NCBI GenBank assembly: GCA_009937525.1 | Contig: JAACFE010000002.1 | Location: forward strand, 1 to 64,000 | DNA: 64,000 nt | Direction of reading: 5' to 3' | Origin: Gammaproteobacteria bacterium | GTDB taxonomy: Bacteria; Pseudomonadota; Gammaproteobacteria; Steroidobacterales; Woeseiaceae | Part shown: positions 26,013 to 53,036 of the stretch, in pieces | How the letters are laid out: every line of letters begins with the position of its first letter | Numbering within the stretch: the first letter of the stretch is position 1 | Translations under genes and position numbers: made by a program | The notes under the pieces: generated by a model | Database searches by the model: none | Told to the model about the DNA's origin: nothing | What the model saw: the letters and a program-made list of their open reading frames with translations, nothing else

Positions 26013-26699
26013 CTAGTTGTGTTGCCGCAATGCGCGTTTCGCCGCGCGTTGCACGATCCAGATGACTGCGGCGATGGCGACGATCGCGACGGCCGCGATC
26101 CAGTAGGTACCGCTTGCCGGGCGAACATCACCAGCGAGAATTGCGCCGAAATCATCCGCGAGGGTGCCAAGATATACGTAGAGGAGCACGGCGGGCAACA
26201 TGCCGAGCGCAGTTGCGCCCAGATAGGTCGTCGCCGTCACCCGGGTCAGGCCGAACGCGTAGTTCAGCAGATTGAAGGGCAAAACGATGGCGAAGCGGGC
26301 GAGAAATACGATGTAGAACGATTGTGCATCCACGGCTTCGTCGAGCGCCTGCAGTTTCAGACTCTCGCCCATGCGTTCCTCGACCCAGGAGCGACCCAGG
26401 ACTCTGCCCGCCAGGAATGCGCCATACGCGCCCGCGGTGATCCCCAGCAGGGCGAGCGGCAGCCCGGGCAACAGGCCGAACAGCAAGCCGCCCAGCATCA
26501 TCGAGATCCAGCCCGGGAACAGCGCTACGGTGGCAACCGTGACGGCCACGACGTATACAACCGGTACCGCGACCGGATACTGCTCGTTCAGCAGCGCGAG
26601 CCGTTGCAGCCACTCCGTGACGGGTAAGGTACGAAACAGGATCGCGAACCCCGCGATTCCCGCCAGCACCAGCAGGCGATTGATCGTCGCGCGCTTCAC
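26013..26699 (-). CDS. TVP38/TMEM64 (DedA-like) family membrane protein
   Basis: A 228-residue integral membrane protein with about six hydrophobic segments. The SNARE-associated/DedA-type signature appears as FPGWISMMLGGLLFGLLPG and ITAGAYGAFLAGRVLGR, then RFAIVLPFNLLNYAFGLT. Family members act as lipid scramblases or transporters at the inner membrane. The GTG start overlaps the stop of the sigma-54 regulator by four bases (GTGA), so it is translationally coupled to that regulator. Confidence 0.9.
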   Translation of the reverse strand: MKRATINRLLVLAGIAGFAILFRTLPVTEWLQRLALLNEQYPVAVPVVYVVAVTVATVALFPGWISMMLGGLLFGLLPGLPLALLGITAGAYGAFLAGRVLGRSWVEERMGESLKLQALDEAVDAQSFYIVFLARFAIVLPFNLLNYAFGLTRVTATTYLGATALGMLPAVLLYVYLGTLADDFGAILAGDVRPASGTYWIAAVAIVAIAAVIWIVQRAAKRALRQHN

Positions 26700-28507
26700 C
26701 GGCGACTTCGCCTGACCGGCTTCCTGATGCCGAGCGTTCGAATCCGGTCGGCGAGTGTCGTCGGCTTGATGCCCAGCAGGTCTGCAGCCCCTCCGGCACC
26801 CGATACCCGCCAGTTTGCCTGCTCCAGGGCGGCGATCGTGTTCTTCTTCTGGAGTTCCCGCATCTCCTGTTCGGTGAGAAACGCAGCCGCGCCCGATGCG
26901 TCGGACGCCGCATCGCTGCCGCTCGACGCCGCTTCGGGTAATGACGCTTCGAGGCGCAGCACGTTACCGCGCGACAGGATCACCGCCCGCTCGATGACGT
27001 TCTTGAGCTCCCGAACGTTGCCGGGCCAGTCGTAAGCTCGCAGCTTGTTGGCTTGCCCTCTCGCCAGCGTCATGGGTTCGCGGCCGAAATCCTTGCAGGT
27101 ATTGTCGAGAAAGTCCTGTGCGAGCTGAATAACATCGTCGCCCCTGTCCCGCAAGGGCGGCACGTCGATAGGAAACACGCTGAGCCTGTAGAACAGATCC
27201 TCGCGAAAGCGCCCTTCCACGATCTGCCGTTCGAGGTCCCTGTTCGTCGCCGCTATGACCCGGACGTCCACCGACCGGGTAAGGTCGTCGCCAACCCGCT
27301 CGAATTCGCTCTCCTGCAGCACTCGCAGGAGCTTGCCCTGCAGCTCCAGTGGAATCTCGCTGACTTCGTCGAGGAAGATGGTGCCGCTGTCGGCCAGCTG
27401 GAATCGGCCGATCCGGTCACGATGTGCACCAGTGAACGCGCCTTTCACGTGGCCGAAGAATTCGCTCTCGAAAAGCTCCTTGGGGATGGATGCGCAGTTG
27501 ACCTTGACCAGCGGTCCTTCCGAACGCGGGCTACGTGCATGGATGGCGTGCGCGACGAGTTCCTTGCCGACGCCCGATTCTCCCTGCAGCAGCACGGTTG
27601 CCGGCGTTTCCGCCACCGCCTCGACGCGCTTCAGCATCTGGCGCAGTGCCGGGCTCGTGCCGGCGATGCGGCCGAGGTTCATTGCGACACTGACTTCTTC
27701 GCGAAGGTAATCGCGCTCCTGTTCCAGTTCTTCGCGCAGCCGCGCATTCTCTGCGAGCGTGCGCCGCAGGCGCCGTTCCGCCCCCTTGCGCTCGGTGACG
27801 TCCTTCGAAGCCACCAGCATCTGATCGACATTGCCCCTGCCGTCGCGGTGCGCGATGGACGACATGACGATGTCGAGCACGCGCCCGTCCTTCGTCACCA
27901 TCTGGCGGTCTACGTTGGTGAATTCGCCGCGATTGATCGCCTCCTGCAGCCGGCCACCGGAGAAGCGGCGGCGGTCCGCTGCGCTGTAAAAGTCGGTGAC
28001 CGGCCGGCCGAGAACCTCGTCGCGCGTATAGCCCAGCTTCTGCAGCCAGTGATCCGTCACTGTCTGGATGTGCCCGTCGGCATCCAATGTGTGCAGCATC
28101 GCCGGAGTCGAGCGATACAGGTCCCGGTACCTGAACGCGGCGCGTGCCTGGTCCGTGACCTCGGCGTACATGGCGATCGTGCGCAGGAAACGACCCTCCG
28201 GGTCGTACTCGATGATCGCATCGCTGATGCAGTCGACGATTTCGCCGGACTTGGCCACGAAACTCAGGGGCTTGCCTTCCAGTTTCCCGGTGCGGCGCAG
28301 AGCCGGGCGGAATTCCTCTTCGATGCGCCGCGCGCTTTCCGCAGTAACGAAGTCGAGCGGCCGGCGGCCGATCATCTCCTCACGGGAAAAGCCGAGCCGC
28401 CGCTCGACCGCATCGTTCACGTCGAGGTAGCGGCCATCCTGGTCGATCGCGGTTGCCATCGCCGGCGCCTTGCGAAACAGCCACTCGTAATCGTCGTCTC
28501 TGCTCAT
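26696..28507 (-). CDS. PAS-domain sigma-54-dependent transcriptional activator
   Basis: A 603-residue NtrC-type activator. Two PAS domains occupy about residues 8-118 and 127-238, joined by a short coiled coil (240-272) to a AAA+ domain. Walker A is GESGVGKE (309-316), the sigma-54 contact loop GAFTGA is intact at 356-361, and Walker B is TIFLDEV (376-382). A Fis-type HTH forms the C-terminus (ANWRVSG..AADLLGIKPTTLADRI). There is no receiver domain, so a signal bound by PAS probably controls it. Three ACGA-N4-TCGT-like repeats and a sigma-54 promoter lie immediately upstream in the divergent direction. Confidence 0.95.
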   Translation of the reverse strand: MSRDDDYEWLFRKAPAMATAIDQDGRYLDVNDAVERRLGFSREEMIGRRPLDFVTAESARRIEEEFRPALRRTGKLEGKPLSFVAKSGEIVDCISDAIIEYDPEGRFLRTIAMYAEVTDQARAAFRYRDLYRSTPAMLHTLDADGHIQTVTDHWLQKLGYTRDEVLGRPVTDFYSAADRRRFSGGRLQEAINRGEFTNVDRQMVTKDGRVLDIVMSSIAHRDGRGNVDQMLVASKDVTERKGAERRLRRTLAENARLREELEQERDYLREEVSVAMNLGRIAGTSPALRQMLKRVEAVAETPATVLLQGESGVGKELVAHAIHARSPRSEGPLVKVNCASIPKELFESEFFGHVKGAFTGAHRDRIGRFQLADSGTIFLDEVSEIPLELQGKLLRVLQESEFERVGDDLTRSVDVRVIAATNRDLERQIVEGRFREDLFYRLSVFPIDVPPLRDRGDDVIQLAQDFLDNTCKDFGREPMTLARGQANKLRAYDWPGNVRELKNVIERAVILSRGNVLRLEASLPEAASSGSDAASDASGAAAFLTEQEMRELQKKNTIAALEQANWRVSGAGGAADLLGIKPTTLADRIRTLGIRKPVRRSRR

Positions 28508-28520
28508 CGACGCAGCTTAT

Positions 28521-28571
28521 ACGAAATTCCGTATTTGTTGTCACGATTTTTCGTTATTTACGATTTTTCGT
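28521..28571. promoter_or_regulatory. Three inverted-repeat sites, probable enhancer for the sigma-54 activator
   Basis: Sites at 28521-28532 (ACGAAATTCCGT), 28543-28554 (ACGATTTTTCGT) and 28560-28571 (ACGATTTTTCGT, extended to TTACGA/TCGTAA). The last two are identical. They lie 14 bases before the activator's ATG and about 50-100 bases upstream of the -24 element of the divergent promoter, the usual place for NtrC-type enhancer sites. Autoregulation of the activator is therefore also plausible. Confidence 0.65.
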
Positions 28572-28618
28572 AAATATAGTTTTTTTGCTAACTGGCTGTT
28601 TTTATTCATTTTCCAGAG

Positions 28619-28636
28619 TTGGCACGGCGTATGCAT
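28619..28636 (+). promoter_or_regulatory. Sigma-54 promoter (-24/-12)
   Basis: TTGGCACGGCGTATGCAT matches the consensus TGGCACG-N4-TTGCA with the invariant GG at 28621-28622 and GC at 28633-28634, exactly 12 bases apart. Transcription would begin near 28646 and read through the 30-codon gene at 28704. An AT-rich, bendable stretch lies between this promoter and the putative enhancer sites. Confidence 0.8.
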
Positions 28637-28703
28637 TAGGTATTAGCAATAGATACTGTCCGGCCCTCGAAGGGGACCCGGCCCGAATACAAGGAGTGAG
28701 GCT

Positions 28704-28796
28704 ATGAAGGACTACAAACAAGAGGGCCTGGCCCTCGCAGGCATGCTGATTGTGCTGCTCGGCGTCATGTTCGCGGCGGCAGCCACTGTTGCCTGA
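28704..28796 (+). CDS. 30-residue membrane peptide under sigma-54 control
   Basis: A 30-codon frame with a strong AAGGAG ribosome site at 28691-28696 and an ATG seven bases later. The peptide has a charged N-terminus (MKDYKQEG) followed by one hydrophobic helix of about 21 residues rich in Leu, Val, Met and Ala, ending right at the C-terminus. It is predicted to sit in the inner membrane with a short cytoplasmic tail. A canonical sigma-54 promoter lies about 70 bases upstream. No family recognised; small membrane peptides of this size often modulate a larger membrane complex, but the partner is unknown. Confidence 0.7.
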   Translation: MKDYKQEGLALAGMLIVLLGVMFAAAATVA

Positions 28797-29110
28797 GGCA
28801 TCAGCGGCAGGAAATCGCGGCGGCCGCTCTTGATATCGCAACGACTGGCCGCACATCGACTGGGATTGCGCAGGCATGCCCGCGCAGTCCCTGTGAACCC
28901 CCTGAGGTGGGTCGCGTCCGGGGCTCTCTCCCCCAATACCCCGGACTGCAAGCCGCCTCGAACAATGCCGGCGGGATCGCCGGCGATTGAGGACCAGGAA
29001 GGTCCGGCGGCACCCCCCTGCCGCTTATCCTGGGCGCCGGAGTCCGTTCCGTGTCGGACCGGCCCGCTTGATCGAACATCGGATTAAGCACTCCGGCGCC
29101 TTCTTTTTCT
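28797..29110 (+). ncRNA. Multi-hairpin structured RNA (3' UTR or small RNA)
   Basis: The 314 bases between the small peptide stop and the terminator carry no convincing frame but at least five non-overlapping hairpins: 28867-28886 (TGCGC/GCGCA), 28916-28946 (GTCCGGGG/CCCCGGAC), 28967-28984 (GCCGGC both arms), 28991-29005 (GGACC/GGTCC with AGGAA loop) and 29007-29024 (GCGGCA/TGCCGC with C6 loop), followed by the terminator stem. The AGGA-in-loop hairpin resembles sites bound by CsrA/RsmA. It would be cotranscribed from the sigma-54 promoter unless it has its own. RNA status is inferred. Confidence 0.45.
29033..29108 (+). terminator. Terminator with large structured loop
   Basis: An 11-bp perfect inverted repeat (29033-29043 with 29090-29100) is followed by TTCTTTTTCT. 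The 46-base loop can form an inner hairpin (29042-29059). The T-tract is only on the plus strand, so it ends the rightward transcript and not the convergent PGPGW gene. Confidence 0.65.
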
Positions 29111-29127
29111 ACCCGATATCGCAATGT

Positions 29128-29397
29128 TCAGCGCTCAACGCGGTCACGATGCCGTTCCGCCTGCTTCGCCTGATTCCTGGAGTTGTGGTTGCTGATACTC
29201 TCGCGCACCCTGCGCAGCCAGATCCTGGCCCAGGCGAATTCGACACCGAGTATGGCCAGCCCGATCGGTATGACAATCAGGCCCGGTCCCGGCGTGACGA
29301 GCATGATGATGCCCAGCAACAGTACGGTCGATCCGACCGTGAGGATGGCGATGCGGCGTGCGGTCTTGTAGGTAAGATGCGCGGTTTTCCGAATCAT
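29128..29397 (-). CDS. PGPGW-type transmembrane protein
   Basis: An 89-residue membrane protein with two hydrophobic segments, about 17-36 and 40-58. The segment MLVTPGPGLIVIPIGLAILG matches the PGPGW putative transmembrane family, whose function is unknown. A basic tail (NQAKQAERHRDR) follows. It is convergent with the structured RNA and ends 18 bases past its T-tract. ATG at 29397 is the only sensible start. Confidence 0.8.
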   Translation of the reverse strand: MIRKTAHLTYKTARRIAILTVGSTVLLLGIIMLVTPGPGLIVIPIGLAILGVEFAWARIWLRRVRESISNHNSRNQAKQAERHRDRVER

Positions 29398-29482: not shown

Positions 29483-29983
29483 ATGCTGATCCACGTCGCA
29501 TTGCTGACCGGCCTGTTCTTCGTCTTTACCGACGTCGACAGGCTGCGCGTGCACCCCGAGCCGGCTGTGGCCGTACTCACGCTACAGCAGGCCGGGCGCA
29601 GTCTCGTGCGCCTGTCGGACGTCGAGTTTCGGCTCAGCCTCTCGACGCACTGCGCAAAAGGTGGTCAGCCCGAATCGCTGTCGATCACGATCGCAGACAC
29701 ACACATGAATCTGCGCGCCGAAGAACTCCAGGCCGGGCGCAAGTTCGACGTCGCCATGCGCATACCGGCCAGGCAGATCGCGCCGCTGGCACTGCATGAA
29801 TTCTGTATCGATCCGGCGTCCGAAGGCGATTCGGTCCTGATCACTTCCGCGATGGCCCTGCAGGCCTCGCTTCGATGCTCACGGGGAGACGATCATTCGA
29901 TAGTGTTCGCTGCCCAACCCCTCGACATCCGTGTGGATTGCATCAGCGCCGCCGTCACGGCGGCGGAGCCAACTGCCGACTAG
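29483..29983 (+). CDS. Hypothetical protein with N-terminal hydrophobic segment
   Basis: A 166-residue protein preceded by a good GAGGGAGA ribosome site; the frame extends upstream to 29396 but this ATG is favoured. Residues 1-17 are hydrophobic and could be a weak signal or anchor. The rest looks like a small beta-rich domain with several cysteines (THCAKGG, EFCIDP, LRCSRG, VDCISA), which suggests disulfides in an exported protein. No family recognised. Its last four bases overlap the convergent dienelactone hydrolase gene. Confidence 0.6.
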   Translation: MLIHVALLTGLFFVFTDVDRLRVHPEPAVAVLTLQQAGRSLVRLSDVEFRLSLSTHCAKGGQPESLSITIADTHMNLRAEELQAGRKFDVAMRIPARQIAPLALHEFCIDPASEGDSVLITSAMALQASLRCSRGDDHSIVFAAQPLDIRVDCISAAVTAAEPTAD

Positions 29984-30888
29984 CCGGAGCCCGGGGCGAG
30001 ACGATCTCGCAGAAAATCCAGGGTCCTCTTCCACGCATCCTCTGCGTACTCGGCATTGAAATTATTGCCGCTGGGGTTGGCAAACGCGTGGCCCGCACCT
30101 TCATAGACCTGGATCTCGTAGTCCTTGTCGAGACGCTCCAGCGCCTCCTCGAAACGTCGGACGGACTCCAGTTTGATGCCGCGATCCTCGGACCCGAACA
30201 GACCCAGTATGGGAACGTCCAGCATACTCAGCCTGTCTTCGTCGTCGGTCACCTGTCCGTAATAAATAACGGCAGCATCGAGGTCCGTGGGAAACAACAT
30301 CGCGGTATTGAGCGACCAGCCACCGCCGAAACACCAGCCGAGCGAAGCGACGCGTGGAGCACCGGCGGTCTCGCTCACGAATGCATACGCCTGCTCGATG
30401 TTCGACGTAAGCGAATCGCGGTTCTCGACCGCCCGCAACATCAGCTCCCTCGCCTCCTCGGGCCTCGTCGCCGACACGCCCCCGAAAAGATCGACCGCCA
30501 GGACGATGTAGCCCTCGGCGGCAAGCCTTTCCGCCATTGCGCGAATATTATCGTTGAGCCCCCACCATTCGTGGATCATGATGACCGCCGGCAGCGGCTC
30601 GATCATGTCGGACGGGAATGCAAAATGTCCGTAAACGAGTTCGTTGTCGACTTCTGCGTAGGCGAGACGCTCGCCCGTGACCTCGCGCTGCGGCTCGACC
30701 TCGACCGCTTCGCTGGGCTCGGCCGTGTCTTCTGCATGCTCTCGCGCCATCGCCTCGACGTTTGCGACGGCAGCCGCTTGCTCTTCGTCAGCCTGGCTCG
30801 TATCCGTGCGGCCGCACGCGGCAACGAAGCATAGCGTGAAGATCTGGACAGCGAGCATTACGCTCCGCCCCGGTATGCGGTGACTCAT
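29980..30888 (-). CDS. Dienelactone hydrolase-family lipoprotein
   Basis: A 302-residue alpha/beta hydrolase with a lipobox at C25 (CFVAACG), so it is probably an envelope lipoprotein. The dienelactone hydrolase triad is visible: C186 (GWCFGGG), D235 (GSEDRG) and H267 (GAGHAF), plus the family segment IMIHEWWGLN. ATG at 30888 is chosen to start just before the signal peptide. Natural substrates of such exported members are generally unknown; ring-opening of lactones or ester hydrolysis is likely. A second family member occurs at 43.8 kb. Confidence 0.88.
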   Translation of the reverse strand: MSHRIPGRSVMLAVQIFTLCFVAACGRTDTSQADEEQAAAVANVEAMAREHAEDTAEPSEAVEVEPQREVTGERLAYAEVDNELVYGHFAFPSDMIEPLPAVIMIHEWWGLNDNIRAMAERLAAEGYIVLAVDLFGGVSATRPEEARELMLRAVENRDSLTSNIEQAYAFVSETAGAPRVASLGWCFGGGWSLNTAMLFPTDLDAAVIYYGQVTDDEDRLSMLDVPILGLFGSEDRGIKLESVRRFEEALERLDKDYEIQVYEGAGHAFANPSGNNFNAEYAEDAWKRTLDFLRDRLAPGSG

Positions 30889-30991
30889 AAAGCGATTCCG
30901 GATATTTTCGCCAAGTGTAATGGAAAACGGGTGCCTGTCGAAGGACGCACGCCGGAAATGCGTCCCCCATTCCATCCGGTGACCTCGGGCA

Positions 30992-31165
30992 TCAGGGTGA
31001 TGCGCTGTCTCCCCATTCGTCGTCGTCCTTCCATTCACGAAGCTTTCTCTTGTCGACCCGGCGCCATTGCTCCTCGCTCTTCTTCATGTTGCGCATTACT
31101 TTGGCAATCGCGTAGACGATAACGACGGCAGTGATAACGAATACGGGCCAGAAGCCTCCGTTCAT
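30992..31165 (-). CDS. Small single-pass membrane protein
   Basis: A 57-residue protein started at the ATG at 31165, which follows an AGGAG ribosome site. One N-terminal helix (WPVFVITAVVIVYAIAKV) is followed by a charged cytoplasmic tail rich in Lys, Arg, Glu and Asp (WRRVDKRKLREWKDDDEWGD). The longer frame to 31228 lacks a ribosome site. Function unknown; it lies upstream of the dienelactone hydrolase gene on the same strand. Confidence 0.65.
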   Translation of the reverse strand: MNGGFWPVFVITAVVIVYAIAKVMRNMKKSEEQWRRVDKRKLREWKDDDEWGDSASP

Positions 31166-52619: not shown

Positions 52620-53036
52620 GGGACTTTCCTCGCTCCTGGTTGCCCGCTACCACGGACAAGTCGAATTTGTTCTTGTTGCAAGCGAATCCGATGATGGTAT
52701 CGGCATCCCGGATTGTCAAACGAGGCGGGTGAGAGCTTTGGGATGTCTTCCTGGTGTCTGGATACTGCACTCGACCAGTACCGATTTAACAATATGTTTC
52801 AGCGGGTCCAGCGTTCATTGACAGCTTTCGCGCCGCCGTGCGACGATGCTTCGACGTTTGACAAAGGCACACCTGACGAAAGCCAGGGTCGCAAAGTTTC
52901 CGGTCTACGGGCATAGCCTAGGACAGCGGGGCCGCCAAAACGAACCTGTTTCGCTCGCGACTTCCTCGCCAGCTGGCTTCCCCAATACGCTGCGGCCGTG
53001 TCTTTGGCATTCGAATCACTTTTGCCGGAGACGAGT
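52620..53036. other. Intergenic stretch without a supported gene
   Basis: These 417 bases separate the DUF3313 lipoprotein gene (minus) and the FAD oxidoreductase gene (plus), so they must hold both promoters. A TTGACA hexamer at 52818-52823 has no good -10 partner. Short frames here are antisense or end abruptly. Nothing else is supported. Confidence 0.4.

Follow-up and report, generated by a model that had tools for sequence, protein, structure and literature searches.

Downstream of a 30-amino-acid open reading frame (ORF), the window (the whole 64,000-nucleotide stretch of DNA that was analysed) carries a succession of hairpins in 28867–29100. Do these merely reflect a GC-rich sequence, or do they belong to a regulatory RNA, and if so, which of their parts is used and against which targets? 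A first-pass annotation had pointed to an AGGA loop and a C-rich loop as possible elements of a CsrA-type sponge or of a pairing RNA, with the caveat that high GC makes some hairpins likely by chance.

Structure and conservation of the hairpins

The stems of 8 bp, 6 bp, 5 bp with an AGGAA loop and 6 bp with a C6 loop described in that annotation are all present where it had placed them (Table 1); the final stem is present as well, with a greater extent than had been described. The predicted RNA fold of 28867–29100 has an energy of −122.6 kcal/mol, against −100.1 ± 4.8 for 200 dinucleotide-preserving shuffles of the same interval (z −4.73; 0/200 as good). Hence, the structure exceeds what high GC gives.

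Table 1. Position and properties of the features of the locus (window coordinates; cells are those of the 23-sequence alignment).
Feature	Position	Strand	Properties and basis
PAS-PAS-AAA+ sigma-54 activator (enhancer-binding protein)	26696–28507	−	603 aa; divergent from the RNA
Three palindromes ACGAwwTTyCGT	28520–28573	.	candidate activator sites; from sequence, binding predicted
Sigma-54 promoter TTGGCACGGCGTATGCA	28619–28635	+	perfect match
Predicted transcript	28645–29110	+	start deduced from promoter, end from terminator
30-aa hydrophobic ORF	28704–28796	+	truncated version of a small exported protein; orthologues after the same promoter
Outer stem around hairpin A	28903–28961	+	from the fold; 69% of cells paired, 5 pairs changed on both sides
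Hairpin A	28916–28946	+	8 bp, 28916–28923/28939–28946; apical loop with UCUCUCCCCC (28925–28934); 93% of cells paired, 4 pairs changed on both sides
Hairpin B	28967–28984	+	6 bp, 28967–28972/28979–28984; 74% of cells paired, 4 pairs changed on both sides
Hairpin C, loop AGGAA	28991–29005	+	5 bp, 28991–28995/29001–29005; 91% of cells paired
Hairpin D, loop CCCCCC (29013–29018)	29007–29024	+	6 bp, 29007–29012/29019–29024; 96% of cells paired
Branched intrinsic terminator	29033–29110	+	from sequence, stem pairs conserved in alignment; GGCGCCGGAGT (29033–29043) pairs with ACTCCGGCGCC (29090–29100), then TTCTTTTTCT (29101–29110)

The hairpin locus has no match in Rfam 15 at gathering thresholds, and a relaxed threshold (E up to 5) gave only chance microRNA matches there. 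A BLASTN search with 28500–29115 returned matches in 34 of 60 relatives, all from the window's genus; the recurring blocks cover the promoter region and the 3′ end but leave out the ORF. Covariation, the check that the first-pass annotation had proposed, came out in favour of the structure. In an alignment of 23 sequences, 85% of the cells of five helices are paired, compared with 23–44% when the partners are slid; as the helices had been defined manually from the same aligned sequences, this control somewhat favours the structure. The better evidence is that 16 pairs have changed on both sides and that the covariation score is 0.239, as opposed to 0.137 after shuffling (0/500 as high).

A covariance model found matches in 81 of 396 genomes of the order, among them 69 of the 73 genomes of the same genus and 11 genomes of the family's other genera; a class-wide sample gave no match outside the genus. 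A DNA-pattern scan of the contig database yielded 49 matches, mostly due to chance, and the 11 that also scored with the covariance model were from Woeseiaceae or gammaproteobacterial MAGs. At 20 further loci, 11 of them from the family's other genera, the promoter and the activator invariably lie beside the hairpins, and the activators are mostly 65–73% identical. We conclude that the hairpins of 28867–29100 constitute a conserved, covarying RNA that is absent from Rfam. A Woeseiaceae-type copy (activator 72%, model 85.6 bits) also occurs in one genome assigned to another family, f15 (G208; L121, L131); its reported contamination of 6% points to misbinning or transfer.

A sigma-54 locus that recurs across families

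The divergent gene upstream encodes a protein with a Pfam Sigma54_activat domain (1.2e-70), two PAS domains and the GAFTGA motif. The gap between this gene and the promoter holds the palindromes (ACGA[AT][AT]TT[CT]CGT), a block conserved in relatives. The promoter is one of only 3 perfect sigma-54 matches in the window's genome and is found at 29/29 genus loci whose sequence reaches it. The locus thus has the make-up of a sigma-54 transcription unit, a −24/−12 promoter with a linked enhancer-binding protein. The other two perfect matches to TTGGCACN6TGCA in this genome lie at C26:43774–43790 (−) and C162:12191–12207 (+).

Activator orthologues served to locate the loci in five further families within the order (f15, f2, f3, f5 and f6). 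At each of them, apart from contigs that end early, the promoter lies 98–161 nt from the activator start and is followed, where readable, by a small exported-protein ORF, hairpins with C-run loops and a terminator. The RNA sequence itself can no longer be aligned between the genus and these loci. Activator, promoter, short exported-protein ORF, C-loop hairpins and terminator therefore recur as an arrangement across Woeseiaceae and five other families; in every family read, an activator orthologue is linked to the RNA. The number of C loops per locus is four in L142, three each in L177 and L166, and two in the AT-rich L199; no C5 run occurs in L188 and L198. The f6 loci have one common design, GGCGGTCGGCGTCT-CCCCCC-GCCGAACCGCC, and L193 from this family shows tandem repeats of a C-loop hairpin plus terminator unit 3′ of the small ORF.

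A class-wide activator search at 1e-170, in which only 3 candidates were scored per genome, found none outside the order. The covariance model had no match in four genomes of the genus (G005, G029, G245 and G289). Inspection of G005 showed the activator and a diverged RNA; in the other three, no activator orthologue passed the threshold, and as these genomes are 80–84% complete, gaps may account for this. As the model-negative genomes either lack the activator or, as in G005, have a diverged RNA, activator and RNA appear to travel together.

Conserved C-rich loops and G-runs at receptor starts

Within the genus, both main loops (those of hairpins A and D) have at least four C in 27/27 sequences. 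The loop of hairpin C, in contrast, contains GGA in 17/27 and drifts to AUGA, CAAAA or GUAA. Two members of the genus (L023 and G005) have lost hairpin C and have a replaced D stem with the C loop kept; in L138 the D stem has likewise been replaced and its loop kept. Stems thus covary or are replaced outright while the apical C-runs stay, and C loops persist through replacement of stem and sequence even in the AT-rich relative. In the 3′ part, C-runs of at least five number 68 in the first group of sequences as compared with a shuffled mean of 32 (maximum 41), and 26, 44 and 13 in the other three groups as compared with shuffled means of 11, 21 and 5. Most of them sit in predicted hairpin loops, and G5 runs are not enriched in the 3′ part of the same four groups. 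As judged from these comparisons, selection keeps the C-runs, not AGGA.

Loop A is complementary to GGGGGAGA. A GGGGGAG directly ahead of the ATG occurs in several genes for TonB-dependent receptors and also in non-receptor genes. All Pfam PF07715 matches in each genome were then collected as receptors, and a site was counted when GGGGG lay at −22 to −4 of any of the first three ATGs; the assignment of start codons and control ORFs was mechanical. In a complete genome from another genus (G099, with 58 plug domains), the site is present at 20/57 receptors and 1/147 control ORFs (p 8e-12); since the receptor lead came from the pattern search and two of these 20 genes had already been seen, the following two genomes are the cleaner tests. 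These gave 7/15 receptors vs 1/156 control ORFs in the window's own genome (G000; p 7e-8) and 7/17 vs 3/115 in a genome of family f15 (G104; p 2e-5). In all three the excess is limited to the ribosome-binding window. In G000, a receptor on contig C36 is preceded by the best match, GGGGGAGA, with eight predicted pairs to loop A. Duplex energies between loops and targets favour receptors for the C loops at p values of 0.12, 0.012 and 0.0006, without significance in G000, and do not favour them for a control hairpin. The two activator-less genomes that were compared have too few receptors to serve as a control, with GGGGG at 1/4 in G029 and 0/2 in G046.

Given the retained C-loop tips and the matching G-runs at receptor starts, the RNA probably turns receptors down. 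The idea of a C-rich loop as the pairing element of a small RNA, raised in the first-pass annotation, is well supported by the loops in 27/27 sequences and by a strong complementary target class, the pairing itself being predicted. The explanation that we favour, and hold to be rather probable, is a regulatory RNA under the control of sigma-54 and its activator, whose C-rich loops would pair with G-runs in the ribosome-binding sites of TonB-dependent receptors and repress translation. The PAS-AAA+ protein would sense a signal and bring about sigma-54 transcription of 28645–29110 (+), with about 28900–29110 as the structured, terminator-ended regulatory RNA, either as part of the whole transcript or processed from it as a 3′-UTR-derived sRNA. 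Its loops UCUCUCCCCC and CCCCCC would form short G-C duplexes with the G-runs, chiefly on mRNAs of TonB-dependent outer-membrane receptors, and so block their translation.

Alternatively, an antisense RNA with the same C-rich loops might have a broad action on ribosome-binding sites rich in G, or have a few other mRNAs as its targets; the G-runs of the receptors would then be an unrelated feature of translation. The G-runs could indeed be ribosome-binding sites for another reason: they act as enhancers in Xanthomonas (PMC3771888), and the non-receptor genes with GGGGGAG before their ATG speak for a wider range of targets. However, GGGGG is rare in the control ORFs and is found at 35–47% of receptors in two families of the order, so we consider this broader action unlikely. 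Somewhat less likely still is a 3′-UTR stability element plus terminator of the small-protein mRNA, devoid of action in trans. The hairpins do follow the ORF on the same predicted transcript with the terminator at its end, but protection from decay requires stems, not invariant C loops, and here the stems vary and the loops stay; moreover, the ORF of the window has been cut to 30 aa with the RNA fully kept. Titration of a C-binding protein such as Rho or a cold-shock protein, with no mRNA pairing, would fit C-runs in loops as the conserved feature. It is nevertheless very improbable, as it leaves the G-run enrichment at receptor starts unexplained and as Rho and cold-shock proteins usually favour unstructured RNA. 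Hardly credible, finally, is the CsrA/RsmA sponge suggested by the AGGA in hairpin C, since a sponge of the CsrB/RsmZ type needs several conserved GGA hairpin loops and this single candidate is not conserved and is lost altogether in two members of the genus.

Known regulatory RNAs and the small protein

Small RNAs under RpoN and an NtrC-family activator occur in Pseudomonas as NrsZ and CrcZ, the latter titrating Hfq through CA motifs; both differ from the Woeseiaceae RNA in activators, sequences and targets. A close parallel is sX13, a constitutive RNA of 115 nt that is encoded next to polA, is reported only in Xanthomonadaceae, and has compact stems with apical 4C/5C loops; the mRNAs that it represses carry G-runs close to where translation starts (PMC3771888). 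Both RNAs are gammaproteobacterial and have C-rich apical loops, but the Woeseiaceae RNA belongs to another family, has a sigma-54 promoter, its own divergent activator and a preceding ORF, and its predicted targets concentrate on TonB receptors. Its locus adjoins the sigma-54 activator and not polA. By analogy it would work like sX13 without being a member of the sX13 family.

In the CIN1 locus of Rhodobacter (CcaF1-CcsR1-4), a gene for a small protein, sRNAs and a Rho-independent terminator follow one another on one transcript (PMC10253847). The Woeseiaceae locus is predicted to have a similar layout; CIN1, however, is alphaproteobacterial, with an RpoHI/RpoHII promoter and a DUF1127 RNA-binding protein, as opposed to sigma-54 and an exported protein without Pfam domain. 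Membership was rejected, as the upstream ORF has no Pfam match and hence no DUF1127. The CcsR RNAs have CCUCC-type loops. ChvR of Caulobacter is a structured sRNA under a dedicated regulator, ChvI, which represses a TonB-dependent receptor, its single reported target, by pairing; one pairing site lies immediately before the start (PMC6237742). A dedicated regulator and the TonB-receptor target class are common to both, the receptors being only predicted in Woeseiaceae; ChvR differs in being alphaproteobacterial and ChvI-controlled, and its description has no C-rich wording (PMC6237742). By locus or promoter, the Woeseiaceae RNA is a member of none of sX13, ChvR and CcaF1-CcsR.

Our literature search found no paper on this RNA or on a sigma-54 C-loop RNA, and no sRNA work on Woeseia. 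Dozens of TonB-dependent receptors are costly and let in phages and toxins, so that bacteria must limit them. To our knowledge, no single RNA with its own activator has been described that controls a large part of the TonB receptors post-transcriptionally; the present locus makes such control of the class directly testable. If our reading is true, the locus would provide an independent example of C-rich loops that pair with G-runs in ribosome-binding sites. As the loops are conserved and the sequence is not, homology searches miss such an RNA.

Orthologues of the small protein have 30–110 aa and follow the same promoter; the copy in the window ends right after the hydrophobic part and has no TonB-box-like motif. 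In f2, most of f6 and part of f15, the mature N-terminus scores as a TonB box above nearly all shuffles, using a matrix built from receptors of these same genomes (IDEIVVTAPR, MDEIVVNGAE, EELVVTAPR). Among Woeseiaceae such a score was reached by only 1/9, and most keep another C-terminal motif, LDLDIRLIGPTSVKIA. This resemblance suggests a protein arm aimed at TonB, to be taken as a lead and not as a result: the mature N-terminus might imitate the TonB box and compete for TonB. Tentatively, then, one may think of a two-armed shut-off of TonB uptake, in which the C-loop RNA would be joined in several families by a periplasmic TonB-box mimic and the protein arm would have decayed in the genus; we regard this extension as doubtful. 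The literature search found no paper on a TonB-box decoy. A protein-only reading of the locus was rejected because the RNA has been retained in full where the ORF is truncated. Small exported proteins from f2 (L181–L184) have two TonB-box-like repeats, IDEIVVTAPR and then VDEMTVTAPR.

Convergent genes 3′ of the RNA encode a PGPGW membrane protein (29128–29397, −) and a dienelactone hydrolase-like protein (29980–31038, −). In other families, too, the RNA seems to be followed by similar hydrolase coding sequence (L170, L174, L186, L197), which suggests old synteny. Elsewhere in the window, a c-di-GMP-I-GGC riboswitch aptamer is found at 52857–52940 (+), its 61.1 bits being above the Rfam gathering score.
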